The position numbers and the translations under genes are program-made. This document shows positions 28,391 through 47,729 of a stretch of DNA of 64,000 nt, in pieces (position 1 is the stretch's first letter; every line of letters starts with the position of its first letter). The DNA is from Streptomyces globisporus (GTDB lineage: Bacteria > Actinomycetota > Actinomycetes > Streptomycetales > Streptomycetaceae): positions 806,001 to 870,000 of the forward strand of contig BMTG01000001.1 of assembly GCA_014649555.1 (NCBI GenBank), written 5' to 3'. The notes beneath the pieces were generated by a model. The model was given only the letters and a program-made list of their open reading frames with translations, was not told the origin of the DNA and did no database searches.

Positions 28391-29425
28391 CTACGCGTGA
28401 GCCGTCGAGGTCAGCCGCTGCACCCCCCGCGCCGTCTCCGTGACCCCGCTCAGGAAGCCCTGCGCGCGCGGGGAGGCCGTGGCGCGGAGCCATTCCGGGG
28501 CGATGTCGCAGACCGCGACGTTCACGCCCGTGCCGGCCAGGGCCAGCGGGAGGGTGTGGACGACCGTGGAGGGGAAGCTGACGATCGTGCGGCCGATGGG
28601 GCCGCGGCGGGCGATCAGTTCCAGGGGGAGGTCCGGGCGGACGATCTCCAGGCCGGTGGCGGCTTCCAGGGCGTGGAGTTTCTCGGCGGACTCGCGGCGA
28701 TGGGCGAAGTAACGCGTGGCGCCGTGGGTGCGGGCCAGGGAGGCCACCGCCTCCTGGTACGGGACGGGGTCGACGACGCCCGTCTCGACCAGGGAGGTGC
28801 CGACGAGGTCGGCGCCCTTGCCGATGCTGGGCGGGCCGAAGCGGGCCCGGGTCCAGGCGAAGGTGTTCCGGGTGACCGCGACGCCGGGCGGAGCCTCGAC
28901 CGGCATCGCGGTGAACACCTCGACCGTGTGGCGGGCCGTCGGGGTGAAGCGGCGGCGGGCGGTGGCGGTGACCGGGGCCAGGACCAGTTCGCGCGGTCCG
29001 GTACGGCCCCGGCGGTGCCAGCGGGTCAGCCGTTCGCCCCGGGCCAGCTGGGCCACGAACTCCATGGTGGCCGTGCCGTCGTCGACCACCGTGAGGCGGT
29101 CGGCGCGGACCAGGGTCAGCAGGAGCTGGACGTAACGCGAGAACGGATCGCCGATCACGATGTGGTCCGCGCGCCGGACCAGGCCGGCCAGGGCGCGCAG
29201 GGCCTTCAGGGGGGCGCCGGACTCGCCGCGCGCCTCCTGCCAGCGGACCGCGATGCCCTCGTCGCGGGCCAGCTCCGCCATCCGGCGCAGCTGACCGCGC
29301 GACATCGGGTCGACCGGGGGGAGGACGACGACCGTGGTGGCGGCCGGATCGTCTCCCCCCTGGGTGTGAACCCACTCCAGGACGTTCAGGAGCTGGACCG
29401 GGCTCTCGACGAAGGCGAGGTTCAC
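28391..29425 (-). CDS. Polysialyltransferase-like glycosyltransferase of the nonulosonate cluster
   Basis: This 344-residue soluble protein begins NLAFVESPVQLLNVLEW, a start typical of bacterial alpha-2,8-polysialyltransferase (PF07388-type) and lipooligosaccharide sialyltransferases (S-P-x-Q-L-L-N). Other family-like patches are VVDDGTATMEF and IVSFPSTVVHTLPLAL near the C-terminus, where a Ser/Thr-rich sugar-nucleotide site is expected. It is the last gene of the operon with neuB- and neuA-like genes (11-bp gap after NeuB), so it probably uses the CMP-nonulosonate they make. GTG start without a clear ribosome site. Confidence 0.75.
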   Translation of the reverse strand: MNLAFVESPVQLLNVLEWVHTQGGDDPAATTVVVLPPVDPMSRGQLRRMAELARDEGIAVRWQEARGESGAPLKALRALAGLVRRADHIVIGDPFSRYVQLLLTLVRADRLTVVDDGTATMEFVAQLARGERLTRWHRRGRTGPRELVLAPVTATARRRFTPTARHTVEVFTAMPVEAPPGVAVTRNTFAWTRARFGPPSIGKGADLVGTSLVETGVVDPVPYQEAVASLARTHGATRYFAHRRESAEKLHALEAATGLEIVRPDLPLELIARRGPIGRTIVSFPSTVVHTLPLALAGTGVNVAVCDIAPEWLRATASPRAQGFLSGVTETARGVQRLTSTAHA

Positions 29426-29435
29426 CGGTCGGCGC

Positions 29436-30368
29436 TCAGACCGCGACCGGCTCGGGGGCCGGCGCGTTCTCGGTCTCGGCGACGACGCCCGCGACGCGGC
29501 GGAGCTTCTTCATCGGGCCGAGCTCGGACTCGTACACCTTCTTGACGCCGTCGCCGAGCGACTGCTCGATGGTGCGGATGTCGCGGACCAGGCGGGTCAG
29601 GCCCTGCGGCTCGACGGAGGCGGCCTGGTCGGATCCCCACATGGCGCGGTCCAGGGTGATGTGGCGCTCGACGAACGTGGCGCCGAGCGCGACGGCGGCC
29701 AGCGTGGTCTGCAGGCCCGTCTCGTGGCCGGAGTAGCCGATCGGGACGTTCGGGTACTCCTGCTGGAGGGTGTTGATGACCCGGAGGTTCAGCTCCTCGG
29801 CCTTCGCCGGGTACGTCGACGTGGCGTGGCAGAGCAGGATGTTGTCCGAGCCGAGGACCTCGACCGCGTGGCGGATCTGCTTCGGGGTGGACATGCCGGT
29901 GGAGAGGATGACCGTGCGGCCGGTGGCGCGCAGGGCGCGCAGCAGCTCGTCGTCGGTGAGCGAGGCGGAGGCCACCTTGTGGGCGGGGACGTCGAACTTC
30001 TCCAGGAAGGCGACGGCCTCGGTGTCCCACGGGGAGGCGAACCAGTCGATGCCGCGCTTGGCGCAGTGCTCGGCGATGGCGGTGTACTCGTCCTCGCCGA
30101 ACTCGACGCGGTGGCGGTAGTCGATGTACGTCATCCGGCCCCACGGGGTGTCGCGCTCGATGTCCCACTGGTCGCGCGGGGTGCAGATCTCCGGGGTGCG
30201 CTTCTGGAACTTGACGGCGTCGCAGCCGGCTTCGGCGGCCGCGTCGATCAGCGCGATGGCGTTGTCGAGGTCGCCGTTGTGGTTGATGCCGATCTCACCC
30301 GTGATGTAGACGGGGTTGCCGGGGCCGGCGGTGCGGGTGCCGAAGGTGCGCAGGCGGGAGGTGCTCAT
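29436..30368 (-). CDS. NeuB-type nonulosonate (probably Kdn-9-phosphate) synthase, no SAF domain
   Basis: This enzyme condenses phosphoenolpyruvate with a hexose (mannose-6-phosphate for Kdn, or ManNAc for sialic acid). It has 310 residues from an ATG behind AAGGAAG. The TIM-barrel NeuB motifs are clear: ITGEIGINHNGDLDNAIALIDAA, AVKFQKRTPE, DWFASPWDTEAV, KVASASLTDDELL, ILSTGMST, CHATSTYPA, GYSGHETG, and FVERHITLDRAMWGSDQAAS. It ends about 35 residues after the barrel, without the C-terminal antifreeze-like SAF domain of classical NeuB (usually about 345 residues). It is 12 bp downstream of the neuA-like gene. The Kdn assignment rests on context. Confidence 0.9.
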   Translation of the reverse strand: MSTSRLRTFGTRTAGPGNPVYITGEIGINHNGDLDNAIALIDAAAEAGCDAVKFQKRTPEICTPRDQWDIERDTPWGRMTYIDYRHRVEFGEDEYTAIAEHCAKRGIDWFASPWDTEAVAFLEKFDVPAHKVASASLTDDELLRALRATGRTVILSTGMSTPKQIRHAVEVLGSDNILLCHATSTYPAKAEELNLRVINTLQQEYPNVPIGYSGHETGLQTTLAAVALGATFVERHITLDRAMWGSDQAASVEPQGLTRLVRDIRTIEQSLGDGVKKVYESELGPMKKLRRVAGVVAETENAPAPEPVAV

Positions 30369-30380
30369 GGTGGTGCTTCC

Positions 30381-31631
30381 TTACGTGGTGGGGACTGTGG
30401 GGTCAGGGGTGTTGGTGGTGGTGAGGGTGGGGCCCAGCAGCCAGGCCGCGATCTCGCGGATGGCGCCGTAGCCCCCGGGGGTGGTCGTGACGGCGCGCGC
30501 GGCGGCGCGTACCGAGTCGTGGGCGCTGGCGACCGCGACGGGCCAGCCGGCGAGGGAGAAGCAGGGGAGGTCGTTGACGTCGTTGCCGACGTAGAGGACC
30601 CGGTCGGGTGCGATGGAGTGCTCGTCGCACCAGCGCTTCAGCGCCTCGTCCTTGCGGTCGATGCCGTGCAGGACGGGGATCCGGAGCTTTCGGGCCCGGG
30701 CGGCGACGACCGGGTTCTGCTCGGTGGAGAGGATCAGGAGGGGCACGCCCGCCTTGCGCAGCGCGGCGATCCCGAGTCCGTCGCCCCGGTGGACGGCGAC
30801 GGTCTCGCGGCCCTCGGAGTCGACCATCACCCGGTCGTCGGTCTGGGTGCCGTCGAAGTCCAGGACGACCGCGTCCACGTCCGCGAGGGAGGGCAGCGGG
30901 GAGGGGTCCAGGAGCGGGGCGAGCGCCCGGGCGCGGGCCAGGTCGTGCGGGTCGTCGATCTCCAGCACCCGCGCCGGGTCGGTGGGGACCAGGGCGGTGT
31001 GGCCGAAGAAGCGGTGGCGGTGGGTGCGGAAGCCCGCCGCGTCCATGGCGTAGGCGGCGCCGGTCTCCAGGTGGTCCTGGGGGCGGTCCTGGCGCCGGGG
31101 GCGTACGGACTTGTCGTGGTTGACGCCGTACGTGCTCTCCTCGACCGCGTGCCCGTCGCGCCAGACGAAGCCGTGGAACGGGGCGACCGTGACGGCCGTG
31201 TCCGCGCCCTCGTGGGCGACCGCACGCGCCACCCCGTCGATGTCCTCGCGGGAGACGAACGGGCTGGTGCACTGGACGAGGAGGACCACGTCGACGGTGC
31301 GGGCCCGCTCGGCCTCGTAAACGTCCAGGGCGTGCAGCACGGCCGCTTCGCTGGTCGCGGTGTCCCCCGCGATGGCGGCGGGGCGCTCGACGCAGTGCAG
31401 CCGGTGGGCGGCGCGCAGGTCGGCGGCGGCGGTGCGGGCGGCCTCGGCGATCGCCCCGTCGTCGGTGGTGACGACGACGTCGGTGACCTCGGGGGCGCCG
31501 AGCGCGGCGCGGACGGCGCGGGCGACCAGCGGGATGCCGCCGACCTCGGCGAGGTTCTTCGCGGGGACGCCCTTGGATCCGCCGCGGGCGGGGATCACGG
31601 CGAGGACGGTCGGGGGCGGGGGCGGCTGCAT
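30381..31631 (-). CDS. CMP-nonulosonate synthetase fused to KdsC-type HAD phosphatase
   Basis: This is a two-domain protein of 416 residues. Residues 1-235 are a CMP-acylneuraminate cytidylyltransferase (VLAVIPARGGSKGVPAKNL, LLVQCTSPFVSREDID). Residues 245-400 are a KdsC-like HAD phosphatase (VVLDFDGTQTDD, LILSTEQN, LYVGNDVNDLPC). Together they could remove the 9-phosphate made by a Kdn-9-P synthase and activate the sugar with CTP. The ATG at 31631 has CAGGAG seven bases upstream; a GTG at 31688, overlapping the previous stop, would add 19 low-complexity residues. The order NeuA-NeuB-transferase is one operon. Confidence 0.9.
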   Translation of the reverse strand: MQPPPPPTVLAVIPARGGSKGVPAKNLAEVGGIPLVARAVRAALGAPEVTDVVVTTDDGAIAEAARTAAADLRAAHRLHCVERPAAIAGDTATSEAAVLHALDVYEAERARTVDVVLLVQCTSPFVSREDIDGVARAVAHEGADTAVTVAPFHGFVWRDGHAVEESTYGVNHDKSVRPRRQDRPQDHLETGAAYAMDAAGFRTHRHRFFGHTALVPTDPARVLEIDDPHDLARARALAPLLDPSPLPSLADVDAVVLDFDGTQTDDRVMVDSEGRETVAVHRGDGLGIAALRKAGVPLLILSTEQNPVVAARARKLRIPVLHGIDRKDEALKRWCDEHSIAPDRVLYVGNDVNDLPCFSLAGWPVAVASAHDSVRAAARAVTTTPGGYGAIREIAAWLLGPTLTTTNTPDPTVPTT

Positions 31632-31684
31632 CGCTGCTCCTGGTGTGATGGCGGTTCCTGAAGTGGTCGAGGCCGCTGGAGTGG

Positions 31685-33070
31685 TCACAGCTCCCCCATC
31701 CGGCGGATCACCGGCGCGACGCGCTGGACGCCGTGGCGGTAGGCGCCGCGGGCCGCGTTGCGGACGGTCTCGCGGACCGCGCCCCGGACCCGGCCGGGCT
31801 CCTGCGGCGCGGCCGCGCCGGGCAGGGGCGTGCCGTCGGGGGCCAGGTGGTGGCGGCCGAGGATGCCCGGGAGGTAGCCGGGGGCGCTGGCGGGCGTGTA
31901 GTAGGGGGCGAGCGGCGGGAGTTGGCCGGCTTCGAGGAGGGCGGTGACCTTGGCGCGGGCGGTGTCGTAGGCGGTGCCGTACGAGCCGTCGGCGGCGACG
32001 CCCTGCCCTGCCACCCACTCCGCGTCCGGCCGGGGCCGGGTCCCGCCGTCGAGCCGGTCCCAGGAGGTGAGGAGCCCCGAGCCGACGAAGTGGTGGTTGC
32101 CGAGCATCTCGCGGACGCCGAGGTCGGTGAGGATCGCGGTCGGGATGCGGCGGTGCAGGGACTCCAGCGCGGCGGTCGAGGAGACGGTGACCAGGAGGTC
32201 GGTGCGGTCCAGGACCTCGCCCATGTGCCCGTACACCAGGCGGAAGTTGGGCGGAAGACCGCCGGGCAGCCGCTGCGCGAGCTTCTGGTAGGGCAGTTCC
32301 TCGATGTGGGTGGTGTGCTCGCCGGGCTTGGAGCGCAGCTTCAGCAGGACCTCGCGGCGCGGATGCAGCCGGGCGTGCTCGACGAGCCGGCGGAGGAGGT
32401 AGGCGCGGTCGGCGCGGGAGGCCGGTACGGAGGGCTGGGCGGCGAACACCACGGTGTCGCGGCCCTCTTCGGGCCGGTACGGGGCTCCGCCCAGGAAGGG
32501 CAGGGCGGCCTCGGTGACGGCCGACGGGTCGGCGCCGACCCCCTCGTACACCGCGCGGAAGCGTTCCGCGTCGTGGGCCGAGTTGGCGAGGACGACGTCC
32601 GCCCCGTGGCGCAGCAGGAGGCCGTCGGCGAGCTTCTCGTAGACGACGCCGACGTATCCGGTGACGACGACGGGCCGGCGCGGGAGGTTCAGCGCGGCGA
32701 TGCCGTGCAGCATGGCCTGGACGCCGCCGCCGACGAGGGCGAGGACGACGAGGTCGAAGCCCTCGTCGCGCACGGTGTGCAGGAACTCGACGGCGGTGAC
32801 CTCGCGGACCCGCTCGGCGTCGATGCCGACCTCGCCGACCTCCGCGAGCTGGCGGGGCGTCGGGGTGGCCCGGCCGCGCAGCAGCAGCCCGCTGACCTCG
32901 ACGGGGCGCGCGTCCTGTCCGTCCCCGGCGGTCTCGGCGGTCAGGCGGCGCGCGGTGAGCGCGCCCCATTTCCACCGGGTGTCGGAGTCGGCGAGGACGG
33001 CGACCCGGAGCGCCGGTCGGGCGGCGGGGGTCTCGGCCGGTTCGGCCTCATGGCTGGTACGTGGGGGCAC
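31685..33070 (-). CDS. Glycosyltransferase-like protein (DUF6716 type), first gene of the neu operon
   Basis: This encodes about 461 residues. Rossmann-like patches suggest a GT-B transferase: LRVAVLADSDTRWKWGALTA at the start, FDLVVLALVGGGVQAML, RPVVVTGYVGVVYEKLADGL, VVFAAQPSVPASR, LLKLRSKPGEHT, and DLLVTVSSTAALESLHRRIPTAIL near the donor site. In Streptomyces this family is regularly found next to NeuA/NeuB-like genes. The start is uncertain: GTG at 33070 matches where similarity begins; TTG at 33109 is possible; neither has a ribosome site. Its stop overlaps the GTG alternative of the next gene. Confidence 0.75.
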   Translation of the reverse strand: MPPRTSHEAEPAETPAARPALRVAVLADSDTRWKWGALTARRLTAETAGDGQDARPVEVSGLLLRGRATPTPRQLAEVGEVGIDAERVREVTAVEFLHTVRDEGFDLVVLALVGGGVQAMLHGIAALNLPRRPVVVTGYVGVVYEKLADGLLLRHGADVVLANSAHDAERFRAVYEGVGADPSAVTEAALPFLGGAPYRPEEGRDTVVFAAQPSVPASRADRAYLLRRLVEHARLHPRREVLLKLRSKPGEHTTHIEELPYQKLAQRLPGGLPPNFRLVYGHMGEVLDRTDLLVTVSSTAALESLHRRIPTAILTDLGVREMLGNHHFVGSGLLTSWDRLDGGTRPRPDAEWVAGQGVAADGSYGTAYDTARAKVTALLEAGQLPPLAPYYTPASAPGYLPGILGRHHLAPDGTPLPGAAAPQEPGRVRGAVRETVRNAARGAYRHGVQRVAPVIRRMGEL

Positions 33071-33272
33071 GTCGAAGAAGTTAGGAAGGCATTTCGATGA
33101 GCGGCCCAACGCGATGGCAACAGATGGTTAACAGCGAGCCGACGATTGGGGGACCGCCCCGAATGGGCCGCCAATTACCCTTCCGGAAAAGGCGATTCAC
33201 CTGAGCGTCGGCCGTTGTTCACCTGCTGGGCGCATGACGGAAAAGGAAAGGGCCAGGGCCGCACCTAACGTG

Positions 33273-34262
33273 ATGCGCGTGGTTAAGCTCTCCGTCATCG
33301 TGCCGTTCTTCAACGTGCAGACCTACGCGCCCGACACCCTGAGAAGTCTGCGGGCCAACGCCCGCGAGGACTTCGAGTTCCTTCTCGTCGACGACTGTTC
33401 GACCGACGGGACGCTCCCGCTGCTGCGCCGGGCCGTGGACGAGATCCCCGGGGCCGTCCTGCTGCGGCACGAGGTGAACGGCGGTCTGGCGACCGCGCGC
33501 AACACCGGCCTGGACGCGGCCCGCGGCGAGTACATCGCCTTCCTGGACGGCGACGACTGGCTGGCCCCCGGCCACTACGAGCGGCTGGTGGCGAGGACCG
33601 AGGCGCTGGGCTGCGACTTCGTGCGCACGGACCACGTCCAGGCGAACGGGAAGACCCGCACCGTACGCCGGGTTCCGCACGGGCCGCACGGTGTGGTGAG
33701 CGACCCCCGGGCCGCGATCCTGCCCGCCCACCGCACCACGTCGGTGGACTACGCGTTCGCCTGGGCGGGCCTCTACCACCGGCGGCTGCTGGACCGGGGG
33801 CTGCTGCACTTCACCGACGGGTTCCGCACGGCGGAGGACCGGCCGTGGATCTGGCGACTGCACCGGGAGGCGGAATCCTTCGCCGCCCTGGGCCTGCTCA
33901 GCCATTTCTACCGGCGCGGGGTGGCGACTTCCCTCACCCGGATCGGCGATGTGCGCCAGCTCGATTTCCTGCGCGCTTTCGACCAGGTGATCGCGGAGAC
34001 CGCCGCCGACCGCGAGGCGGAGGTGTTTCTGCCGAAGGCCGTACGCACGTACTGCGCGATCATCGCCCACCATCTGGGCGACCTGGACAAATTCGAACCG
34101 GCCGCGGCCCGTGAGCTGAAGTCGCGCGGCGCCGCGGCCCTGGGACGCCTGCCGCAGCGGCTGCTGGACGAGGCGCTCGACGCCATGGACGTGAAGCGGG
34201 CGACCCGGGTGCGCAGGCTGCGCCGCCGTCCGACCGCCACGAAGGGGGCCTCCGCCGCATGA
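33273..34262 (+). CDS. GT2 glycosyltransferase A
   Basis: This is a family 2 transferase of about 329 residues. The GT-A nucleotide-sugar domain shows KLSVIVPFFNVQTYAPDTL, FLLVDDCSTDGT, NGGLATARNTGLDAARGEY and the metal-binding IAFLDGDDWLAPGHY. A helical C-terminal third follows (KAVRTYCAIIAHHL). It resembles TagF/polymer-type GT2 enzymes. ATG at 33273 is chosen for the conserved start; ATG at 33234 or GTG at 33279 are possible. It overlaps the next gene by 4 bp. A paralogue lies at 41970-42935. Confidence 0.88.
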   Translation: MRVVKLSVIVPFFNVQTYAPDTLRSLRANAREDFEFLLVDDCSTDGTLPLLRRAVDEIPGAVLLRHEVNGGLATARNTGLDAARGEYIAFLDGDDWLAPGHYERLVARTEALGCDFVRTDHVQANGKTRTVRRVPHGPHGVVSDPRAAILPAHRTTSVDYAFAWAGLYHRRLLDRGLLHFTDGFRTAEDRPWIWRLHREAESFAALGLLSHFYRRGVATSLTRIGDVRQLDFLRAFDQVIAETAADREAEVFLPKAVRTYCAIIAHHLGDLDKFEPAAARELKSRGAAALGRLPQRLLDEALDAMDVKRATRVRRLRRRPTATKGASAA

Positions 34263-35596
34263 CCATCCGGATCTTCCACGCCTCCTCGCCCGGGGCGGCG
34301 GTCCTGCTCGCCGCGGCCATAGACGCGGGCTGCTTCACCGAGCCCGACCGCCGGATCCTGCTGCTGTCCCGGACCGGGCCCGCCCCGGAGACCGTCGCCG
34401 ATGTCTCTACGAGCGCCGGGTTCGAGCGGCTGCGCACCCGGTTCGACGCGGTGCTCTCGTGGAACGACGCGATCGCCCCCTTCCACCCGGACGGCTGGCA
34501 CCCCCGGGCGGACGACGCCCCGCTGTGGGAACGCCACTTCCGGCGGGCCTGGGGTCTCGGCGAGGAGGAGCTGGAGCTCGTCGTCGACTCCCCGCACGCC
34601 GGCCCCGCCCGGGCCCTCACCCAGGTGTTCGCGGGCACCCCCGTCGATGTGTACGCCGAGGGGCCCGGCGCGTACGGCCCGACCGGGGAGAAGATCCCGC
34701 CGCTGACCGGGGCCCGGGTGCGGCGGCTGCTCCATCCGGACCTGGTCGCCGGGGTGCGCCCGCTGCTCCTCGGTGAGTACGGGGTGGAGCCGCGGACCGT
34801 TCCGGCCGAGGCGATCACCAAGGTCGTCGCCGAACTCGCGGACGGGGAGGTGGCGTTGCCCGGCGTCGAGGAGCCCGCGCTGCTGCTCGGGCAGGATCTC
34901 GCGGGGGCCGGGCTGATCCCGGCGGCCGACGAGGCGGGGATCCGCCTGGAGATGGTGCGCGGGGCGGCGGCCCTCGGTCACACCCGGCTGGTGTACGCGC
35001 CGGATCCGTACGCCCCGTGGGAGAACCCGGCGGCGCTGCGCGCGGAGGCGGACCGGCTGGGTGTCGAACTGACCGTTCTGGACGGCCCGTTGCCGGTCCC
35101 GGCCGACGTGGCGATGCAGCGGCTGCGGCCCGCGCTGGTGGTGGGCTGCACCTCGGCGGCGCTGTTCGGGGCGGCCCGGTTCCACGGTCTGCCGGTGGCG
35201 ACGGTCGGCACGGGGCTGCTGCTGGAGCGGCTGGCCCCGTACGAGAACCCGGAGCGGACGGCGGCGACGATCGCGGATGCGGTGCTGCCGGGGCCGGGTG
35301 ATGCGGAGGCTCCTGTCGCGCGACAGGAGCCGTCGTCCGTCGGCGAGTTGGACGGTCTGCTGGCCGCGGTCGCCTTCGCGATGCGGCCGAAGGTGCGTCC
35401 CGATCTGCGCCCGGCCGCCGAGCGCTACCTCGCCGCGCACCTGGACAGCCGCACCTGGCGCTACTTCAAGCGCCGCCGCCTGGCCTCGCTCGCGCTGCCC
35501 GGCGTGGTCCCGGCCCGGCTGGCGTTCCTGCGCTCCAGCCCGGCGCTGCGCCGGGTGGTCCGGCGGGCGCGGGCGCTGCGGGGCGGGAGGGGCTGA
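34259..35596 (+). CDS. Polysialyltransferase-family protein A
   Basis: This 445-residue protein starts at the ATG of an ATGA overlap with the GT2 stop. It begins IRIFHASSPGAAVLLAAAID and carries ALVVGCTSAALFGAARFHGLPV and HLDSRTWRYFKRRRLASLALP, shared almost word for word with the protein at 40497-41966. Both belong to the alpha-2,8-polysialyltransferase-like (PF07388) group. It is soluble, with a strongly basic C-terminal tail that may hold it at the membrane. It probably adds or extends nonulosonate residues; acceptor unknown. Confidence 0.8.
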   Translation: MTIRIFHASSPGAAVLLAAAIDAGCFTEPDRRILLLSRTGPAPETVADVSTSAGFERLRTRFDAVLSWNDAIAPFHPDGWHPRADDAPLWERHFRRAWGLGEEELELVVDSPHAGPARALTQVFAGTPVDVYAEGPGAYGPTGEKIPPLTGARVRRLLHPDLVAGVRPLLLGEYGVEPRTVPAEAITKVVAELADGEVALPGVEEPALLLGQDLAGAGLIPAADEAGIRLEMVRGAAALGHTRLVYAPDPYAPWENPAALRAEADRLGVELTVLDGPLPVPADVAMQRLRPALVVGCTSAALFGAARFHGLPVATVGTGLLLERLAPYENPERTAATIADAVLPGPGDAEAPVARQEPSSVGELDGLLAAVAFAMRPKVRPDLRPAAERYLAAHLDSRTWRYFKRRRLASLALPGVVPARLAFLRSSPALRRVVRRARALRGGRG

Positions 35597-35629
35597 GGGG
35601 GCCCGGGCCCCCTCCCGGGGGGCTCAGCC
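35591..35629. terminator. Convergent terminator containing both stop codons
   Basis: The outer stem GGCTGAG (35591-35597) pairs with CTCAGCC (35623-35629), with a GC-rich palindromic interior. It embraces the stop of the plus-strand transferase and of the minus-strand acyltransferase. Confidence 0.65.
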
Positions 35630-36724
35630 CAGCACCTTGCTCGCTCCCGCCCGCCCCCACAGGAGGGCCGCACCGAACGACAGGGCCGTCGTGGCCACGG
35701 TGATCCCGACCACCAGCGCCACGGCGGCCGGGCCGCCCAGGTCCGCGTCGACAAAGGCATCGGTGAGGACGCCGAGCACGAGGACGTGCACCAGATAGGC
35801 CCCGAACGACGCCTCGGACAGCCGGGCCAGCGAGGGCCGCATCCGCTCCGGGACCCGTACGCCGTGCAGGGACACCAGGACCCCGCAGCTGAACAGGGCC
35901 ACCAGGACGTGCGCGTACGGGATCGCGTAGTGCACCTCGTGCTGGTACGCGATCACCCCGGCGAGTCCGGCCGCCGCGAGCAGCAGCCAGGGCCACCGCC
36001 GCCTGCCGAACGCCCCGGCCGGGGCGGCGAGCAGCAGCGCACCGAGCACCGCGTAGATCAGCTGGTACGGGGCGAACGCCCAGCCGAAGCGCGGCAGTTC
36101 ACGGCCGGTCGCCTCGGCCACGTCGCCGAGGAGCGACGGGGCGGACGCCAGCACGAGCAGGACCGCGCCGAGGCCCCACGGCCGCTTGCCCGCCCGGACG
36201 AGGACGACCAGCCCCAGGACCATGATCACGGGGAGGTAGGCGTACAGATACCAGAGGTGGTAGGCGGGACGGACCGAGGCGAACACGGAGTCCAGGGCGA
36301 GCCCGCGGACCGGGTCGTCGTTGGTGTCGCGCAGCTTGCCCCAGGCGAGGTAGAGCGCGGTCCAGACGGCGAGCGGCACGACGATCCGCACGATGCGCCG
36401 CCGCAGCCGGGCGCCGTCCTTGGGCGGGGCCCCGACCAGGACCACCCAGCCGGCGATGGCGAAGAAGAGCGGTACGGCGAAGCGCCCGGCGGAGTCGGCG
36501 GTCAGCCCGGCCCAGTAGGTGCCGGGCCCCTCCGCCGCCGTACGGCCCACGGTGTTGACGAACGCCGAGCCGGCGTGGAGGCCGATGACGGCGATGGAGC
36601 AGAGCAGCCGGATGAGGTCGATGTCGTAGCGGTGCCCGGCCCGGTCGGGGCGCGGTGTCTCCGGGGCCGTCGTCGCAGGAGCGGGGGCGGGTGCGGAGGC
36701 CGAGGCGGGGGGTGTGGTGGACAT
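35624..36724 (-). CDS. Acyltransferase family 3 membrane protein
   Basis: This 366-residue protein has ten membrane helices after a Pro/Ala-rich N-terminus. Acyltransferase-3 motifs are RYDIDLIRLLCSIAVIGLHAG (with the conserved R and H), AVPLFFAIAGWVVL and LWYLYAYLPVIMVLGL. These enzymes O-acylate sugars on the outer or inner membrane face. As last gene of the operon beginning at 42935 it probably acetylates the wall glycopolymer. The start ATG is 6 bp from the end of the pyruvyl transferase gene. Confidence 0.88.
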   Translation of the reverse strand: MSTTPPASASAPAPAPATTAPETPRPDRAGHRYDIDLIRLLCSIAVIGLHAGSAFVNTVGRTAAEGPGTYWAGLTADSAGRFAVPLFFAIAGWVVLVGAPPKDGARLRRRIVRIVVPLAVWTALYLAWGKLRDTNDDPVRGLALDSVFASVRPAYHLWYLYAYLPVIMVLGLVVLVRAGKRPWGLGAVLLVLASAPSLLGDVAEATGRELPRFGWAFAPYQLIYAVLGALLLAAPAGAFGRRRWPWLLLAAAGLAGVIAYQHEVHYAIPYAHVLVALFSCGVLVSLHGVRVPERMRPSLARLSEASFGAYLVHVLVLGVLTDAFVDADLGGPAAVALVVGITVATTALSFGAALLWGRAGASKVLG

Positions 36725-36729
36725 GGTCC

Positions 36730-39090
36730 TCAGGGGGTGGGCGGGGCGGTGCGAAGGGAGGGGGCGACGCGGTCCTCACCGGCGGCGGACCGGGGCGCGG
36801 GAACCACGGGGCCGGTGCCCGGGCCGTCGAACGGGTCCGGCAGCCCCGTGAGTTCACGCAGCAGCGCGAGGTTGCCCCGGGTCACGGACCACAGCGCCCG
36901 CTGCCGGTCGTGGACGTCGGCCACCGCCGCCGGATGGTCGGCCAGCACGTCGAGAGCCCGCTCCGCGAGCCGGGCGCCGAGGGCCCGTTCGTGGACGGAG
37001 ACGCCCCAGTCGGGCCGGTCGATGTCGGCCAGGAAGTAGGCCAGTTTGGGGTGCGAGACCAGGCTGATGACCGGGGTGCCGCAGCCGAAGGGGATCATCC
37101 CGGCGTGCCCGCGCATCCCGATCACCAGCCGGGTGCGCCGGTAGAGGTCGCGAATCGCGTCGTTGGAGAGCAGGTACAGCGGCTCCACGGGGAGAACGAG
37201 GCCGTGCTCGCGCCGCAGATCGTCGACGAAGCGTTCGTCGGCGGGCATGTGCGCGGCGTAACGGACCTCTGCCGCACCGGAGATGGCCCGGATCGCCGCG
37301 GCCATCTCCGCGAGGAAGTGCCCGTAGTCGTGGCCGAAGCGGAGCCCGGCCCGGTCGTAGGCGCAGTTGATGAGGACGGTGTCCTCGCGTACGGCCGGTT
37401 CGGCGAGGCGGGCGTCGAGGTGGCGGGCGACCGTGGTGGGACAGGGCTGGTAGCGCACCTTCTCGCGGAGTGAGGCGGGCAGCAGCTCCCTGACCCGGGC
37501 GACGGAGCCGTGGTTGCGCAGCCCGAAGAACGCGGACCGCTCGACCAGGGCTCGCAGGGAGGCCGCGAACCGCTCGCGCCGGTAGCGCTGGCCGTCGAAG
37601 ACGTTGTAGCCGACGGCGAAGACCGCCAGGGGGGCGGTGATCCGGGCGAGCACGTCGTCGGGGATGTTCCACTGCCAGCCGCTGTTGCCGTTGGGCGCGG
37701 TGTCGGGGAGGAAGAGCCCGCCGCCGCCGACGATCACGGCCCGCCGGGCGTTGAGGCGTTCGAGGCCGGCCTCGTCGACCAGCAGGTGCGCGTGCTGCTG
37801 GTGCCAGCGGTCGGGGCCGGTGTCGGCCGTGAAGCAGCTGCGGACCGCTTCGGGCAGCACCTTGTCGCCCGCGTTCTCGTCGCCCTCGGCGAACAGGGCG
37901 ACATGGGCGAGCTGTTCGCCGGGCGGGGTGTCCGACGCGGTGGCGCCCGCCGTGACCATCTCGGACGTACGGGCGTACCAGGCACGGCAGTTGGCGTCGG
38001 TCGGGTCGGACTCCAGACCGGCGAGCGCATATCCCCGGGCGTCCTCGGTACGGCCCAGCAGCCAGGCCATCCGGGCGAGTTGGCCGTACGCGCGCGGGGC
38101 GAAATCCGGGGAAGCCGTCGCCAGGAGGAGGTGCGTCTCGGCTTCCTCGTACCGGGACAGCGCCATCAGGCAGACCCCGAGCGTCTCGTGGCAGCGCGGC
38201 AGGTCCGGGCGGTCCGCGACGGCCTCGCCCAGCAGGGCCACGGCCAGATCGTGGTGACCGCGCCCCCGGTGGATCTCGGCGAGCTGCCGGACCAGGTCGA
38301 TCGGCGGCCGCGACCCGTCGGGGAACGGGAGCGCGAGGTGCAGCAGCAGGTCGGGGTGTTTCGCACCGGGGAGGGCGAGGTAGGCGGCGCGGAACGCCTC
38401 GTCGTCCAGGTCGAACCGCGCCCGGGCGGCGTGGGCGGGACCGGTACAAGGGGACTGCGTACCCGCGAAGTTCAGGACGACGACGCCTTCGGGGACCGCC
38501 AGGTCCTCGCGGAGCCGCAGCGCCCGGAAGTCGTACCGGGAGTCCAGGGGTACGAGGACGCTCTCCGGGACGTCCCGCGCGGCGGCGGGCGGTACGGCGT
38601 GGTCGAGGTCCTGGCGCTGGATCACCAGGAGTCCGTCGTCGGGGATGCCGTGACGCGGGTCGGGGACGCCCTCCGGGCCGGTGCGCGGCACGGCGGCCAC
38701 GCCCGTACGGAGACGCAGCAGGGCGTCGATCCTGCCGAGGACGACCAGGGCGGGGGTGAGGGCGATGACGGTGTCGTAGCCGTCGAGGCGGAACACGTCG
38801 TGGCGGCCGACGGCCGGGCGCGGGGTCAGCCGGGGGTGCAGCCGGTGGGCGGCGTCGAAGGAGGCGTCCGGGAGGCCGGGGTGCAGGACGACGACGTCCT
38901 CGCAGAGAGCGGGGTCGGTCAGCGCGAGGCTGCGCAGGAGGGTCTGGAGTCCGGGCAGTTCGCCCACGTCGGCGACGTACACGGCGAAGGCGATCCGGCG
39001 CTTCCCGGTGACGGCGCGGCGGTCGTCTGCGGAGGCGGATGCGGTGTCGGCTGCGGCCCCGGCCACGGGAGTGGAGTCGTGCGTCGTCAT
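36730..39090 (-). CDS. Polysaccharide pyruvyl transferase with N-terminal sugar-transferase-like and TPR regions
   Basis: This 786-residue protein starts at the ATG of an ATGA overlap. Residues 30-230 look like a small GT-A-type domain (RRIAFAVYVADVGELPGL, GYDTVIALTPALVVLGRID). Residues about 290-395 are TPR-like (GRGHHDLAVALLGEAVADRP, GRTEDARGYALAGLESDP). The rest is a pyruvyl transferase domain (HVALFAEGDENAGDKVLPEA, IVGGGGLFLPD, GMRGHAGMIPFGCGTPVISLV). Such enzymes place pyruvate ketals from PEP on sugars, adding negative charge. The combination of three parts is unusual. Confidence 0.85.
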   Translation of the reverse strand: MTTHDSTPVAGAAADTASASADDRRAVTGKRRIAFAVYVADVGELPGLQTLLRSLALTDPALCEDVVVLHPGLPDASFDAAHRLHPRLTPRPAVGRHDVFRLDGYDTVIALTPALVVLGRIDALLRLRTGVAAVPRTGPEGVPDPRHGIPDDGLLVIQRQDLDHAVPPAAARDVPESVLVPLDSRYDFRALRLREDLAVPEGVVVLNFAGTQSPCTGPAHAARARFDLDDEAFRAAYLALPGAKHPDLLLHLALPFPDGSRPPIDLVRQLAEIHRGRGHHDLAVALLGEAVADRPDLPRCHETLGVCLMALSRYEEAETHLLLATASPDFAPRAYGQLARMAWLLGRTEDARGYALAGLESDPTDANCRAWYARTSEMVTAGATASDTPPGEQLAHVALFAEGDENAGDKVLPEAVRSCFTADTGPDRWHQQHAHLLVDEAGLERLNARRAVIVGGGGLFLPDTAPNGNSGWQWNIPDDVLARITAPLAVFAVGYNVFDGQRYRRERFAASLRALVERSAFFGLRNHGSVARVRELLPASLREKVRYQPCPTTVARHLDARLAEPAVREDTVLINCAYDRAGLRFGHDYGHFLAEMAAAIRAISGAAEVRYAAHMPADERFVDDLRREHGLVLPVEPLYLLSNDAIRDLYRRTRLVIGMRGHAGMIPFGCGTPVISLVSHPKLAYFLADIDRPDWGVSVHERALGARLAERALDVLADHPAAVADVHDRQRALWSVTRGNLALLRELTGLPDPFDGPGTGPVVPAPRSAAGEDRVAPSLRTAPPTP

Positions 39091-40430
39091 CTCAGGGTGA
39101 TCCTCACTGCGGTGTCGTCCGTGGCCCCGGCCCGCGCCCCGATCCACTCCCGCTCACGCGGGGACAGGGCCGCCGGTCCTTCGAACCCGATGAGGTCCAC
39201 CCGGGCGGGCGTGCCCAGGAAGTCGAGGAGCCGCAGCACGGTGTACGCGGTGCTCGCGGGCCCTTCCGCATCGGCCGCCGCCTCGCCGAGCAGCGCCGGA
39301 TCGTGCAGCGGGCGGCGCAGCGTCGCGTCGCCGATGCGGTCCTGGGCGCCGGGGACGAGGCGGCTGCGCAGGGCGAGCCGCCAGTGCGGGAGCGGATCGC
39401 CGAAGACCAGCCGGGCGGTGGCCCGGCGGTCCCACCGGGGGCCCTTCCACGGGGAGTCGCCGCGCAGGGTGACGGCGTGCAGATCGGTTCGGGCGGTGGG
39501 GGCGGCGTGGCGTACGGCGTCGCAGCGCACGACGAGGTCGGAGCCGCCGATGAGCGCGGCCAGGGAACTGCCGGGCCGCTGTTCCTGCTCGGCGGTGTGC
39601 GGGGTGTCGGCGACCAGGCACACCGTCCGGCCCGCGAGGAACCGGCGCAGACCGGGGACGCCGAGGGGTTCGGCCCCGCCGAGCAGCGGGTCGGCCATCG
39701 GGTCGCGGTCCGAGAGCCGGCGGTGCTCGGCGTAGAGCGCGGCGAGGCGGCGTACGGCGGGGTCGGCGGCGCCGCGTTCGGTGGTGCGGAGCCGGACGAG
39801 TTCGGTGAAGGCGGCGCGGGCGTCGGCGGCGGGCAGGCGGCGGGAGAGACGGACGGCACCGGTGGCTCCCTCCCCGCCCTCGCTCCCGTCGCCGACCAGC
39901 GCCAGCGCCTCGTCGATGCGGTCGCCCGCCGCGCGGAGGGTGGCGATCCGGCGTTCGACGTCACGCGCGGCGGCGGTGTTCTGCTGGAGCGCGAGGTGGC
40001 GTTCGTACGCGGTGATCGCCTCCTCGCTCCGGCCGAGCGCGTCCAGGGCGTTGCCGCGCAGCCGCCAGGCGCCCTTGGAGCGGGCGCGCAGGGCGGTCGC
40101 CTCGTCGGCGAGGGCCAGGGCGAGGCGGGCCCCGGCGTCGCCGCCGCTGTCCAGGGCCTGCTGCCCGGTCCGCAGCAGCGCGTCGAACGCGTCGGCGCCC
40201 GGGGTGGAGCACGCGGTGGTCAGGGCCCCGATCGACGCGATGAGCCGGGTGCGGCGGGCGTCGGTGAGGGGGCCGGAGGCGGCGAGGGCGGCGAGGTGGT
40301 CGCCGCAGAGCCGCAGGGCGGCCAGGAGTTCCGGGTCCGGTCCGCCGCCGGGGCGGGCCCGGGGCGGCGTTCCCGGCCGTCCCGCTATCGCACGTACTGA
40401 CGTGAGCAGCCCGGTGAGGGTCTGGCCCAT
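39087..40430 (-). CDS. TPR protein with a GT29-like (sialyltransferase) C-terminal domain
   Basis: This encodes 447 residues from the ATG at 40430 (a GTG at 40466 is possible). Residues 110-180 are TPR-like (KGAWRLRGNALDALGRSEEA). The C-terminal half has patches resembling the sialylmotifs of GT29: about 269-322, RTVCLVADTP... GGSDLVVRCDAVRH... RTDLHAV (L motif), and about 391-418, GPASTAYTVLRLLDFLG then VDLIGFEG (S motif, P-S-T...). If right, it uses the CMP-nonulosonate of the neighbouring operon. This is inference from motif shape; no global similarity could be checked. It overlaps the pyruvyl transferase start by 4 bp. Confidence 0.65.
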   Translation of the reverse strand: MGQTLTGLLTSVRAIAGRPGTPPRARPGGGPDPELLAALRLCGDHLAALAASGPLTDARRTRLIASIGALTTACSTPGADAFDALLRTGQQALDSGGDAGARLALALADEATALRARSKGAWRLRGNALDALGRSEEAITAYERHLALQQNTAAARDVERRIATLRAAGDRIDEALALVGDGSEGGEGATGAVRLSRRLPAADARAAFTELVRLRTTERGAADPAVRRLAALYAEHRRLSDRDPMADPLLGGAEPLGVPGLRRFLAGRTVCLVADTPHTAEQEQRPGSSLAALIGGSDLVVRCDAVRHAAPTARTDLHAVTLRGDSPWKGPRWDRRATARLVFGDPLPHWRLALRSRLVPGAQDRIGDATLRRPLHDPALLGEAAADAEGPASTAYTVLRLLDFLGTPARVDLIGFEGPAALSPREREWIGARAGATDDTAVRITLR

Positions 40431-40496
40431 GCTCGTTCCGCCGTTCTGTGAGTCGGACGCCGGCACCGGGGTTCGGGCCCCGGTTCCGGTCCCGGG

Positions 40497-41966
40497 TCAG
40501 AGGCCCAGGGTGCTGCGGGTGCGCCGTACGGTGCGGCGCAGCCGGACCGCCGCGCCCCGGGGGCCGCCGCCGGGCAGGGTGAGGCTCTGGAGGCGGCGGC
40601 GTTTGAAGTAGTGCTGGGTGGTGGGGTCGAGGTGCTCCCGCAGCCAGGCCTCGGCCTCGGGGCGCAGCCCGGGGTTGAGCTTGGCCTGCATGCAGTAGCC
40701 GACGGTCCGCACGAGCGGGGCGAGGGTGTCGGGCGCGGTGCGCGGCAGGTGGGGGACGCCCCCGGGGTCTCGTGCTTCCGCTCCCCCCGGGCCGTCCTGC
40801 GCGTCCAGGTCGGGCACGAGGTGGTCGGTGATCGTCAGCGGGATGCGGTTGCTGTTCTCGTACGGGGTGATCCGGTCGAGGACCAGCCGGGTGCCGACGC
40901 GGGCGACGGGGATGCCGTAGTAGGCGGCGGCGGTGAACATCGCGGTGGAGAAGCAGCCGACGACGAGGGTCGGCGCGCAGCGCTCGTACAGCGTCTCGGC
41001 GAGCAGCGGGCTGTCCAGTGTGGTCAGCCGTACGCCGAGTTCGGCGGCGGCCTCGTCCAGGGCGCGGGAGTAGCGGGCCGGGGCGGTGGGGTGCGGCTTG
41101 AAGAGGATGGAGGTGTGCCCCGCGCGGGCGGCTCCGCGCAGCATCCGGATGTGCAGCTCCTCTTCCTCCTCCGGGGTGAGGATGGTGAGGGCGGCGAGGT
41201 ACTGGCCCAGCAGCATCGCGGTGGGGGCGGCGGCCTCGGCGGCGGCGAGCCCCCGGTCGCCCTCGGCGGCGGTGGCGATCTCGGACAGGACCGCGCGGAA
41301 GGCGTCGTCGGGGACGAGTTCGGGTTCGACGCCCGCCTCGGCGAGGAGGAGCGGGCGCAGTCCGGTGACCAGGTCGAGGTGGAGGACGCGCCGGATGCGG
41401 CAGGCGATGGACTGGGGCATCCGGTTGCGGGTGGGGCCGTAGCTCATCAGGCCGTCGGCGTAGACGTGGACGGCGCTCTCGGAGAAGATCGCGGCGAGCG
41501 CGCGGGCCGGGTTGACCTGGATGGACTCGACGGCGAGGTCGACGGGGGCGTCGGGGGCGATGTCCCAGGCGAGGCGGAAGGCCCGCTGCCACAGGACGGT
41601 CTCCTCGGAGCGGGGGCCCCAGCCGCTGGGGTGGTGCGGGCTGATCGCCTCGTTCCAGTCGATGACGGCGTCGAAGCGGGCGGCGAGGGATCCGTAACCG
41701 CGCATCTCCTCCAGGCGCAGGGCGGTCTCGGGGACGGCCGCGTTGTTGGAGACCAGCAGGATGCGGTGGCTGTCGAGGGCCCGGCCGAACTGTCCGGCGT
41801 CGAGCGCGGCGGCGAGGGTGGCCGCGCCGTACAGGGTGGAGACCTGGAAGATCTGGGTGCGCGGGGGTGTACGCACGGAGGGGGAAACAGGCGCGGGCGT
41901 GGGTACGGACGCGGACCCGGGTGCCGGGTCGGGCGCGGGCGTGGGTACGGAATCGGGCACGGTCAT
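40497..41966 (-). CDS. Polysialyltransferase-family protein B
   Basis: This 489-residue paralogue of the protein at 34259-35596 has a 35-residue Pro/Ala/Ser leader, then TQIFQVSTLYGAATLAAALD. Matching patches are VIDWNEAISPHHPSGWGPR, VHVYADGLMSYGPTRNRMP, RRVLHLDLVTGLRPLLL, LVVGCFSTAMFTAAAYYGIPVARVGTRLVLDRITPYEN and HYFKRRRLQSLTLPGG. It is a likely nonulosonate transferase or polymerase (PF07388-type). Its gene starts 3 bp after the GT2 stop. Confidence 0.82.
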   Translation of the reverse strand: MTVPDSVPTPAPDPAPGSASVPTPAPVSPSVRTPPRTQIFQVSTLYGAATLAAALDAGQFGRALDSHRILLVSNNAAVPETALRLEEMRGYGSLAARFDAVIDWNEAISPHHPSGWGPRSEETVLWQRAFRLAWDIAPDAPVDLAVESIQVNPARALAAIFSESAVHVYADGLMSYGPTRNRMPQSIACRIRRVLHLDLVTGLRPLLLAEAGVEPELVPDDAFRAVLSEIATAAEGDRGLAAAEAAAPTAMLLGQYLAALTILTPEEEEELHIRMLRGAARAGHTSILFKPHPTAPARYSRALDEAAAELGVRLTTLDSPLLAETLYERCAPTLVVGCFSTAMFTAAAYYGIPVARVGTRLVLDRITPYENSNRIPLTITDHLVPDLDAQDGPGGAEARDPGGVPHLPRTAPDTLAPLVRTVGYCMQAKLNPGLRPEAEAWLREHLDPTTQHYFKRRRLQSLTLPGGGPRGAAVRLRRTVRRTRSTLGL

Positions 41967-41969
41967 CGG

Positions 41970-42935
41970 TCAGGCGGCCTTCTGCTTGGTGCGCAGACGG
42001 CTGAGCAGCGTGCCGCGCTTGTCGTCGATCATCGTCAGGGTGCGGTCGAGCACGTCCTGCGGCATCCGGCCCAGCGCGGCGGTGGACTCGGCGCGCAGCT
42101 TCCGGGCGGTGGCGGGCTCGTAGTCGTCGGCCTTCTCGTTGTGAAAGGCGATCATCGCGCAGTAGGTACGGACGGCCTTCGGCAGCAGGGTGTCCGCGTC
42201 CCGGTCGGCGCGCAGCTGGTCGAGCAGCGTGTCGTAGGAGGCGAAGAAGTCGAGCTGGCGGGCGTCCTTGATCTGGGTCAGGGAGGTGGTGACCCCGCGC
42301 CGGTAGAAGATGCCGTACAGACCGAGGGCGGCGTAGGTGCGGGCGCGCAGATGGAGCTGCCAGATCCACAGCCGGTCCTCGGCGGTGCGCAGTTCGGTGG
42401 CGAAGCGCTGGGCGCCGTCCGCGAAGAGCCGCCGGTGGTAGATCCCGGCCCAGACGAACGGGTAGTCGACCATGGTCTCGCGCTCGGGCACCCCGATGCC
42501 GTCGCGGGGGTCGAGCAGGGTGTCCCGGAGCGGGGCGGGGGCGCGCCGCACGACGCGGGTGGTGCCGGTGGACTGGACGTGGTCGGTGCGGGCGAAGTCG
42601 CAGTCGAGGTCCTGGGCGGCGCGCAGCAGCCGGCCCAGGTGGCCGGGGGCGTACCAGTCGTCGCCGTCGAGGAAGGTGAGGTAGTCGCCCTCGGCGGCGT
42701 CGATGCCGCTGTTGCGGGCGGCCGCGATGCCGACGTTCGTACCGTGTCTGATCACCCGGGCGCGCGGCAGCCGCTCGGCCCAGTGGTCGACGATGTCCTG
42801 CGTGCCGTCGGTCGACGCGTCATCGACCAGCAGGAACTCGATGTCCGGGTCCGCGTTGCGGGCCAGGCTCCCCAGCGTGGTCGGGGCGTAGGCCGCGACA
42901 TTGTGGAGCGGTACGACGACGGACAGTTTCGGCAC
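41970..42935 (-). CDS. GT2 glycosyltransferase B
   Basis: This 321-residue family 2 transferase starts at GTG 42935 (AAGGTGAGG upstream; GTG at 42947 is possible). The GT-A motifs are KLSVVVPLHNVAAYAPTTL, FLLVDDASTDGT, GIAAARNSGIDAAEGDYLTFLDGDDWYAPGH. It is colinear with GT2 A (33273-34262) throughout, including RRGVTTSLTQIKDARQLDFF. First gene of the operon that runs to the acyltransferase. Confidence 0.88.
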   Translation of the reverse strand: MPKLSVVVPLHNVAAYAPTTLGSLARNADPDIEFLLVDDASTDGTQDIVDHWAERLPRARVIRHGTNVGIAAARNSGIDAAEGDYLTFLDGDDWYAPGHLGRLLRAAQDLDCDFARTDHVQSTGTTRVVRRAPAPLRDTLLDPRDGIGVPERETMVDYPFVWAGIYHRRLFADGAQRFATELRTAEDRLWIWQLHLRARTYAALGLYGIFYRRGVTTSLTQIKDARQLDFFASYDTLLDQLRADRDADTLLPKAVRTYCAMIAFHNEKADDYEPATARKLRAESTAALGRMPQDVLDRTLTMIDDKRGTLLSRLRTKQKAA

Positions 42936-43073
42936 GCGCGCCCTCACCTTCGATCATGGTCCCGACAACGTAGTGAGACCGCGGAAGGATCGGGTGACAC
43001 CCGCCACGACAGCGGGTGAACTCTGCGCGTCCGCCGGGTGGCCGGGCACGGGAGGCTCCCTGGCGAGCGGGGC

Positions 43074-46962: not shown

Positions 46963-47729
46963 CACATGTCCTTCTGCGTCCACGGTCGCGAATGCGTCAC
47001 ACCGGGAGTGACCACGGCGGGCGCCGCCGGACCGCTGCGGCCGGGCCGCTGGGAGGGTACGGCCCCGAGCCCGGCGCCGCCGCCCGCGTCGTTCCCGCCG
47101 TCCTGGGCCGGGGGCCGGTCCGCGGTGCCGTCCGGGTCGAACGCCCCGTCGCCGTCGGCCCGGGGCGCCGGAAGCTGCCCGTCGGCGCCGAGGAGTTCGG
47201 CCAGTCGCTTGAGGCCGCGGTGGGCGGCGGTGCGGACGGCGCCGGGCCGCTTGCCCAGGGTCTGCGCCGCGCTCTTCGCGTCGAGCCCGACGACCACCCG
47301 CAGCACGACGGCCTCGGCCTGGTCCTGCGGCAGCTGGGCGATGAGGGACATGGTGCGGTCGGTGTCCAGGGCCTCGATGGCGTCGCCCGCGGTGTCGGAC
47401 TCTGCGGCGCGCGTGGTCAGCTCGGTCTCGTCGCCGCCGATGGCGGGACGGCGGCTGCGCATCCGCAGATGGTCCAGAGAGCGGTTGCGGGCGATCCGCG
47501 CGGCCCAGCCCCGGAACCGGTCGGCGTCACCGCTGAACCGGTCGAGGTCGCGCGCTATCTGCAGCCACGCCTCGGACGCCACGTCCTCGGCGTCCGGCTC
47601 TCCGACCAGCGTCCGTATGTAGCCCAACAACCGTGGGTGCACCGCGCGGTACACAGCACGGAAGGCGTCCTCGTCCCCGTCCTGTGCCGCGAGCACCGCG
47701 GCAGTCAGCTCCGCGTCGTCCCCCAGCAC
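46962..47729 (-). CDS. ECF-type RNA polymerase sigma factor
   Basis: This encodes about 255 residues. Region 2 (AVLAAQDGDEDAFRAVYRAV, YIRTLVGEPDAEDVASEAWL, FRGWAARIARNRSLDHLRM) and region 4 (LIAQLPQDQAEAVVLRVVVGL, KRPGAVRTAAHRGLKRLAELL) are complete. The tail of about 60 residues is Gly/Pro/Asp-rich. GTG at 47729 is chosen because similarity begins there; the ribosome-like GAGGGA is too close, and an ATG at 47828 is possible. The next gene overlaps its stop and probably encodes its membrane regulator. Confidence 0.85.
   Translation of the reverse strand: MLGDDAELTAAVLAAQDGDEDAFRAVYRAVHPRLLGYIRTLVGEPDAEDVASEAWLQIARDLDRFSGDADRFRGWAARIARNRSLDHLRMRSRRPAIGGDETELTTRAAESDTAGDAIEALDTDRTMSLIAQLPQDQAEAVVLRVVVGLDAKSAAQTLGKRPGAVRTAAHRGLKRLAELLGADGQLPAPRADGDGAFDPDGTADRPPAQDGGNDAGGGAGLGAVPSQRPGRSGPAAPAVVTPGVTHSRPWTQKDM

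Follow-up and report, generated by a model that had tools for sequence, protein, structure and literature searches.

We analyzed a 64,000-nt stretch of DNA (hereafter the window) from contig BMTG01000001.1 of Streptomyces globisporus (whole genome 8.25 Mb), in which eleven genes for a putative nonulosonate glycopolymer, named A to K here, lie at positions 28391-42935 (Table 1). A reading made earlier from the sequence alone (the sequence-only reading) had placed eleven genes in three transcription units at this island, and the open reading frames and Pfam matches, whose bit scores were used to assign the island proteins to families, bear this out. Of these units, A-B-C-D and K-J-I-H-G are read from the minus strand and E-F from the plus strand; the gene pairs C/D, E/F and H/I each overlap by 4 bp. 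The NeuB synthase, the NeuA-phosphatase fusion, the DUF6716 protein, the two GT2 enzymes and the acyltransferase of that reading were all recovered by Pfam. It had also counted three polysialyltransferase-like proteins, of which only F and J match PF07388, A being without a Pfam match. Its pyruvyl transferase is present (PF04230), in a gene that also carries a decayed GT8 domain and tetratricopeptide repeats (TPRs), and its GT29-like protein is right as remote ancestry, the window protein having no PF00777 match of its own and having lost the S and VS sialylmotif residues. With 55% identity between E and K and 44% between F and J, the island carries a GT2-polysialyltransferase module twice. 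E probably starts near 33273, further in than the ATG at 33234, because that ATG is unconserved in 12 relatives, some of which have a stop in that stretch. A CCTAACGT-like element lies directly before the likely start (window 33234-33273).

Table 1. Genes and PHO-box-like sites of the island (window positions; scores are Pfam bits)
Feature	Position	Strand	Description
A	28391..29425	-	Conserved core protein, no Pfam family; invariant D115-D116-G117
B	29436..30368	-	NeuB-family nonulosonate synthase without C-terminal SAF/antifreeze-like domain; PF03102, 278 bits
C	30381..31688	-	NeuA-type cytidylyltransferase + HAD fusion; PF02348 (CTP_transf_3), 67.6 bits
D	31685..33070	-	DUF6716 putative glycosyltransferase; PF20471, 361 bits; alternative start 33109
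PHO-box-like site	33195..33223	+	Upstream of E; ATTCACC and GTTCACC, 22 nt apart
E	33273..34262	+	Core GT2 glycosyltransferase; PF00535, 113.8 bits; DGDD motif present; start set by conservation
F	34259..35596	+	Core polysialyltransferase-family protein; PF07388 (A-2_8-polyST), 43.7 bits; signature stretches changed
G	35624..36724	-	Membrane acyltransferase; PF01757 (Acyl_transf_3), 117.8 bits
H	36730..39090	-	Decayed GT8 domain + TPR + ketal pyruvyl transferase; PF04230 (PS_pyruv_trans), 44.9 bits
I	39087..40430	-	TPR + decayed GT29-type sialyltransferase domain; no PF00777 match of its own
J	40497..41966	-	Second polysialyltransferase-family protein; PF07388, 99 bits; signature stretches intact
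K	41970..42935	-	Second GT2 glycosyltransferase; PF00535, 118.2 bits; alternative start 42947
PHO-box-like array	42993..43043	-	Upstream of the K-J-I-H-G operon; GGCCACC, GTTCACC and TGTCACC at 22-nt steps

The order and orientation of the six core genes A-F (28391-35596) are identical in 59 of 60 mapped Streptomyces loci, namely the window and L050-L108 (the shorter L049 was left out), which were chosen for holding NeuB and sitting on large contigs; F of L105 was missed by the gene caller and detected by tblastn. The exception is L077, with only A and B at the locus, so that A is present in all 60. The genome of L077 (G012) contains one polysialyltransferase-family match in total. Orthologues of NeuB were found in 139 of 150 Streptomyces genomes, our own included. 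The polysialyltransferase family is absent from nine of the 150, eight of which are also among the 11 without NeuB; the remaining three of these 11 are assemblies of 1140-1770 contigs. A second NeuB homologue, 37-38% identical and with a longer frame, occurs in four genomes (G088, G040, G019 and G149). The region after F varies, holding a plus-strand acyltransferase in 34 of the 60 loci, a methyltransferase in 10 (both families checked on one member each) and, in some, second GT2-polysialyltransferase pairs of two types or an I-H pair. Across the class, DUF6716 is present in 59 of 296 genomes and 17 of 114 genera, and 14 of the 20 loci fetched from outside Streptomyces carry nearby a NeuB that is 62-67% identical and likewise short. 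A search for DUF6716 on plasmids gave no match.

This core matches SCO4877-SCO4882 of Streptomyces coelicolor in gene order and published description, the two being likened by published names rather than by S. coelicolor sequence. SCO4877 (hypothetical), SCO4878 (GT2), SCO4879 (hypothetical), SCO4880 (transferase, called 'sialic acid synthase' in Planobispora rosea), SCO4881 (polysaccharide biosynthesis) and SCO4882 (hypothetical) fit F, E, D, C, B and A in that order (PMC8269224, PMC2267785). SCO4873-4882 has been described as the teichulosonic acid cluster and a PhoP target (PMC13011467), SCO4873-81 as a PhoP target (PMC2267785), and SLI_5146-5156 of Streptomyces lividans as both (PMC8003754), while the P. 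rosea orthologues are reported to follow a PhoP-activated profile and to respond to phosphate (PMC8269224). The proposed relation to the S. coelicolor teichulosonic acid region is therefore supported by gene content, gene order and these published assignments, and on the published names the six-gene core may be regarded as the defining feature of loci of this kind. Compared with the S. coelicolor region, the S. globisporus locus adds K-J, the decayed I-H pair and the minus-strand acyltransferase beside the core, SCO4873-4876 lying outside the comparison. PhoP control, reported for those two clusters, has its counterpart here in the PHO-box-like sites.

Control by phosphate starvation had not been foreseen in the sequence-only reading. 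The PHO unit of S. coelicolor is described as an 11-nt repeat with GTTCACC (PMC4415409), and the site at 33195-33223 comprises three 11-nt units, the middle one weak. The 22-nt spacing of its heptamers was first spotted by eye in the window promoters and tested afterwards on 60 D-E intergenic regions, from the window and L049-L108 minus L077, which lacks D and E. Two heptamers 22 nt apart scored at least 12 of 14 in 54 of these 60 regions, and the position of the site was the same in 56, the related loci not being independent of one another. By comparison, 0.13% of 3000 dinucleotide shuffles reached this score, and no alternative spacing between 8 and 35 did so in more than 8 of the 60 regions. 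Eleven sites in the genome, this one among them, carry a single mismatch. If up to two are allowed, the number rises to 99, against 15 for the reversed control, and two more of the 99 lie in the accessory promoter upstream of K, where three units follow one another in 22-nt steps. Of the 22 rows compared before K, most of them close kin, 20 score 12 or 13 (L058 scores 11 and L059 scores 10), and the boxes before eight second modules of other loci have mixed scores of 8-12. A search for PHO boxes as adjacent 11-nt repeats gave 4 matches against 5.4 expected, none in the island, and for the A-D operon, on the opposite strand, the best box scores were 8-13. Outside Streptomyces, a site scoring 13 of 14 at the 22-nt spacing was found in three of nine upstream regions, one of which is cut off. 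These three sites (L183, L185 and L188), upstream of a GT2 gene, belong to one family and perhaps lie within coding DNA. We predict that PhoP binds at both box sites of the island; boxes of such a type may already be published.

The identity of the sugar was approached through B, C and the epimerases. B is 269-343 amino acids long in the 57 loci with NeuB as a separate gene. In all 89 NeuB-bearing loci among the 97 checked, at most 57 residues follow the aligned NeuB end, which is an overestimate where the alignment passes the stop, as in L086 (57 residues, with a called gene of 308 amino acids). No SAF domain was recognised by Pfam in any of six synthases tested, the three longest included, although NeuB was matched in each. 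In Neisseria meningitidis NeuB, Arg314 of the antifreeze-like domain is reported to contact N-acetylmannosamine (ManNAc) and to help place the N-acetyl group, the R314A variant being inactive (PMC6795526). The HAD domain of C is present in 83 of the 89 NeuB-bearing loci and missing in L076, L077, L080, L094, L095 and L188 (locus edge); PDB entry 3mmz was matched at 290 bits over residues 264-424 of C. In L076, L080, L094 and L095, NeuA occurs without HAD (minus-strand C/B genes, ~4440-6270 in the oriented loci), and in L076, L094 and L095 NeuA and NeuB form one open frame of 550-588 amino acids. As the sequence-only reading had noted for NeuC in the island, no NeuC/WecB-family epimerase (PF02350) was matched there or in the genome, the same search being positive in 11 of 14 control genomes. 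NanE (PF04131) is likewise absent from the genome and was found in 8 of 14 controls. These two families made up the test for ManNAc-forming epimerases, GlcNAc 2-epimerase (PF07221) being outside the search.

The families of B and C favour a route from mannose-6-phosphate and phosphoenolpyruvate (PEP) through the 9-phosphate of 2-keto-3-deoxynononic acid (Kdn), Kdn-9-P, and free Kdn to CMP-Kdn. The same synthase, phosphatase and CMP-Kdn synthetase steps make up the Kdn-9-P pathway of Bacteroides thetaiotaomicron and Prymnesium parvum, a Kdn-9-P phosphatase being known from the former and a Kdn-9-P synthase from the latter (PMC6200933). Here, however, the phosphatase-type domain is fused to the cytidylyltransferase and the synthase is SAF-less, the SAF status of theirs lying outside the comparison. 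The Kdn reading is strengthened by the SAF-less synthase, the KdsC/Kdn-9-P-phosphatase-type domain and the lack of PF02350 and PF04131 epimerases, and the earlier preference for Kdn over N-acetylneuraminic acid (Neu5Ac) is supported by the two missing families and the SAF-less synthase. Several family scores weigh against it. The best NCBIfam matches are TIGR03569 NeuB for B (256 bits, cut-off 399.65), PseF for the cytidylyltransferase half of C (96 bits, cut-off 205.7) and KdsC for the HAD domain (92 bits, also under its cut-off), with the Kdn-9-P phosphatase family KDN-9-PPhBT (NF058599) lower, at 73.7 bits against a cut-off of 180; the NeuB and HAD matches thus fall below equivalog cut-offs. 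Furthermore, PDB entry 6ncs, also short at 290 amino acids, is labelled N-acetylneuraminic acid synthetase, so that a short synthase is no proof of Kdn. These best family scores would suit a polymer of Neu5Ac, another nonulosonate or a Kdo-like sugar, which we nevertheless regard as very unlikely in view of the missing epimerase genes, the missing SAF domain and the published S. coelicolor polymer, which is reported to contain Kdn (PMC11481543, PMC7831098).

The two GT2-polysialyltransferase modules differ in the state of their signature residues. In F of the window, ADGLMSYG has become AEGPGAYG and FKPHPTAP has become YAPDPYAP, so that the HP motif is lost (HP to DP), in a protein that still matches PF07388 above the cut-off of 23.3 bits; J, with more than twice the score, keeps FKPHPTAP and its HP motif. 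Twelve of 58 F-position copies have lost ADGL[MI]SYG or FKPHP, and all 12 of these genomes have a second copy of the family, compared with 12 of the 46 with an intact F (Fisher p 3e-6, a value that ignores relatedness among genomes). The second copy is within the locus in ten of the 12; in the other two (L079 and L098) one was found elsewhere in the genome, 63% identical to J. In a tree of the GT2 partners, made by a quick method and carrying a long-branch warning, ten K-type copies form one fully supported clade on a long branch, apart from the E-type, and K-J therefore looks like an old separate type and not a fresh duplication. Within a nine-row clade of E, the three rows without K-J keep F and GT29 intact and the six with K-J have both changed, the GT8 state matching this pattern in the six of the nine rows for which it was checked. 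Since K-J keep the signature stretches that F has lost, they are probably the working pair here. Ratios of nonsynonymous to synonymous substitution rates (dN/dS), computed in eight pairs, were 0.18-0.55 for F, 0.14-0.26 for J, 0.04-0.20 for B and 0.09-0.40 for K.

Genes I and H show a similar loss. Matches to PF00777 were found in 20 of the 150 Streptomyces genomes, 13 of them over the cut-off; 17 share a contig with NeuB at a distance of up to ~21 kb, whereas the remaining three come from assemblies of at least 800 contigs, and 19 of the 20 genes are directly upstream of an H gene. An alignment of 32 I rows, in which some genomes are counted twice, shows the residues ANS, PT[TS]G and HEYxxE in 22; the other 10, the window included, lack the VS stretch and have changes in the L and S stretches. 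Relatives of I from other Streptomyces thus carry the L, S and VS residues of the GT29 sialyltransferases in CAZy (L087 matches PF00777 at 26.8 bits, cut-off 23), whereas the window copy has lost S and VS. Gene I occurs at 83-94% identity in Streptomyces rubiginosohelvolus, S. parvus, S. globisporus, S. sindenensis and S. griseus, among others, and its frame is open in all 13 named loci (L002-L014). A profile of I retrieved only TPR proteins from the PDB, and its AlphaFold model (14 close sequences) had a mean pLDDT of 54, the GT29 part mostly 23-49 and only the TPR part confident. As for H, the GT8 stretches DTD, DQGILN and HFTGRHKPW are kept in the first 250 residues of five of nine aligned proteins, two of which (L064 and L105) were tested and match PF01501, with 72 and 67 bits. 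The other four, the window included, have lost these stretches and kept the pyruvyl domain, with no Pfam GT8 in the two tested; in the window DTD has become TPA and PF01501 is not matched. The GT8 part of H in L129 is likewise changed. Values of dN/dS were 0.44-0.70 for the GT8 part, 0.14-0.30 for the pyruvyl part and 0.33-0.48 for I. Outside Streptomyces, PF00777 was matched at G279:C3:862691 (L215), G389:C2:644658 (L217), G321:C38:11065 (L218) and G261:C40:2844 (L219), six of the 296 class genomes having a match, two of them Streptomyces; in G389 the GT29 match lies <20 kb from a short NeuB.

The decay of I coincides with the presence of K-J. A decayed I and K-J occur together in seven of seven mapped loci (the window, L050, L051, L054, L055, L057 and L129), and an intact I with K-J in none of 18 (L052, L056, L064, L087, L105 and L130-L142), several of which end early; in all 18 of these genomes the best polysialyltransferase match to J is at most 60% identical. 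With its signature residues lost, the extra GT29-like gene of S. globisporus probably encodes no active transferase, and I, like F and the GT8 part, may have a scaffolding role or be a relic. The pyruvyl transferase part of H is kept, which makes a pyruvylated polymer plausible, and 7,9-pyruvylated Kdn has been reported in the wall polymer of Promicromonospora citrea (PMC6801904). The sequence-only reading had suggested that the pyruvyl and TPR/GT29 genes may give a variant polymer; the pyruvyl half of this proposal remains plausible, and the GT29 half is undercut by the lost residues.

Taken together, we consider it likely that the locus is this strain's version of the PhoP-regulated teichulosonic acid locus, that is, of a Kdn wall polymer, in which decoration enzymes have been swapped within the lineage. 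A more specific proposal, which we put forward tentatively and at somewhat less than even odds, is that a Streptomyces family of the animal-type GT29 with sialylmotifs, paired with a GT8-TPR-pyruvyl transferase, transfers Kdn at this locus, and that in the S. griseus lineage a second GT2/polysialyltransferase pair has taken over from both this pair and the core polysialyltransferase, which persist as decayed relics in a still-regulated operon, a type switch under way. Several observations speak against such displacement. The HP pair is kept in six of the 12 changed F copies and lost in the other six, the window among them; F is intact in the 12 genomes mentioned above that have a second copy; and L129 holds K-J and a decayed I-H yet an intact F. 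Neither K-J nor H is visible on the 6.5-kb contig of L128, which carries an eighth decayed I. In addition, the dN/dS values of F, I and the GT8 part are all below 1, and those of K and G themselves go up to 0.40 and 0.36, so that the altered proteins may still have a function. Together with the open frame of I and the retained HP pairs, the ratios below 1 in F, I and the GT8 part would fit a locus of eleven active genes, in which a changed acceptor or donor specificity of F and of the GT8 and GT29 parts leads to a two-branch polymer. We find this rather unlikely, as the residues hit are signature ones (DTD, the VS stretch HX4E and FKPHP) and the changes in F coincide with second copies; the idea of eleven working enzymes is not supported, given the signature residues lost from F and from the GT8 and GT29 parts of H and I, losses that the sequence-only reading had not anticipated.

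From the gene content and order, their conservation, the box sequences, the motif losses and the second copies, all directly observed, we infer the substrates, the polymer, its attachment to the wall, the division of labour and PhoP binding in the preferred reading of a swapped teichulosonic acid locus. Upon phosphate starvation PhoP would switch the operons on through the PHO boxes. B would join PEP to what is probably mannose-6-phosphate, giving Kdn-9-P, which the HAD half of C would dephosphorylate before the NeuA half yields CMP-Kdn. A, D and E, originally with F, would build a phosphate-free Kdn polymer in place of teichoic acid; in this strain the module most likely to be active is J with K, and A, D and E may supply backbone steps. 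The I-H decoration pair appears to have kept its activity in the pyruvyl-transfer part of H alone, which could add a pyruvate ketal. As G could add an acyl group, we predict a Kdn polymer that is both pyruvylated and acylated. Pfam recognised no exporter or wall-ligase gene among the eleven, and both functions would then lie outside the island. The same negative result would suit a secreted or spore-surface glycan that is no wall-linked teichulosonic acid. The S. coelicolor region has reportedly been assigned to a wall glycopolymer, to judge by the title of a 2014 study by Ostash, and a secreted glycan is to us the least probable of the readings considered here.

The core of this locus is known biology, and in the openly licensed literature searched, in the parts available, no enzyme of the locus is assigned a step. 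The pattern of kept and decayed genes ranks them for testing, with J, K, B and C first; the decayed ones may do nothing. A Streptomyces GT29-GT8-pyruvyl cassette in a teichulosonic acid locus and its coupled decay were not found in the openly licensed literature, though CAZy may list such proteins; GT29, Streptomyces and sialyltransferase occur together there, as far as the available text goes, only in a paper on Arabidopsis galactosyltransferases. If the intact relatives of I are indeed Kdn transferases, GT29 gains actinobacterial members tied to a nonulosonate pathway. Bacterial GT29s are reported from Proteobacteria, and such members would bear on the proteobacterial origin proposed for the family (PMC5811610). 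Streptomyces wall glycopolymers are described as receptors of umbrella toxins that vary between species, and the turnover of wall-polymer enzymes seen here might be linked to that variation, with which it fits (PMC13274773). The teichuronic acid locus utr of S. griseus, for such a receptor, likewise has species-variable wall glycopolymer genes around a core, but it differs in making a uronic acid polymer with another gene set, including sugar dehydrogenase and epimerase genes (PMC13274773).

Among the core proteins, A is a probable GT-B transferase, to judge from its sequence features. Its invariant D115-D116-G117 resembles the D-D-G motif described for bacterial sialyltransferases (PMC5811610). 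Apart from this, seven Pfam families were touched by 1-6 of 33 orthologues of A with E 0.03-0.19, all at chance level, one of the seven being GT52, with two of the 33 and a best E of 0.14; a profile of A found nothing better than E 1.2 in the PDB, and an AlphaFold model from the single sequence (mean pLDDT 43) was too poor for use. Beyond the island, a 385-amino-acid frame without a Pfam match at window 45826-46983 adjoins an ECF sigma factor gene.

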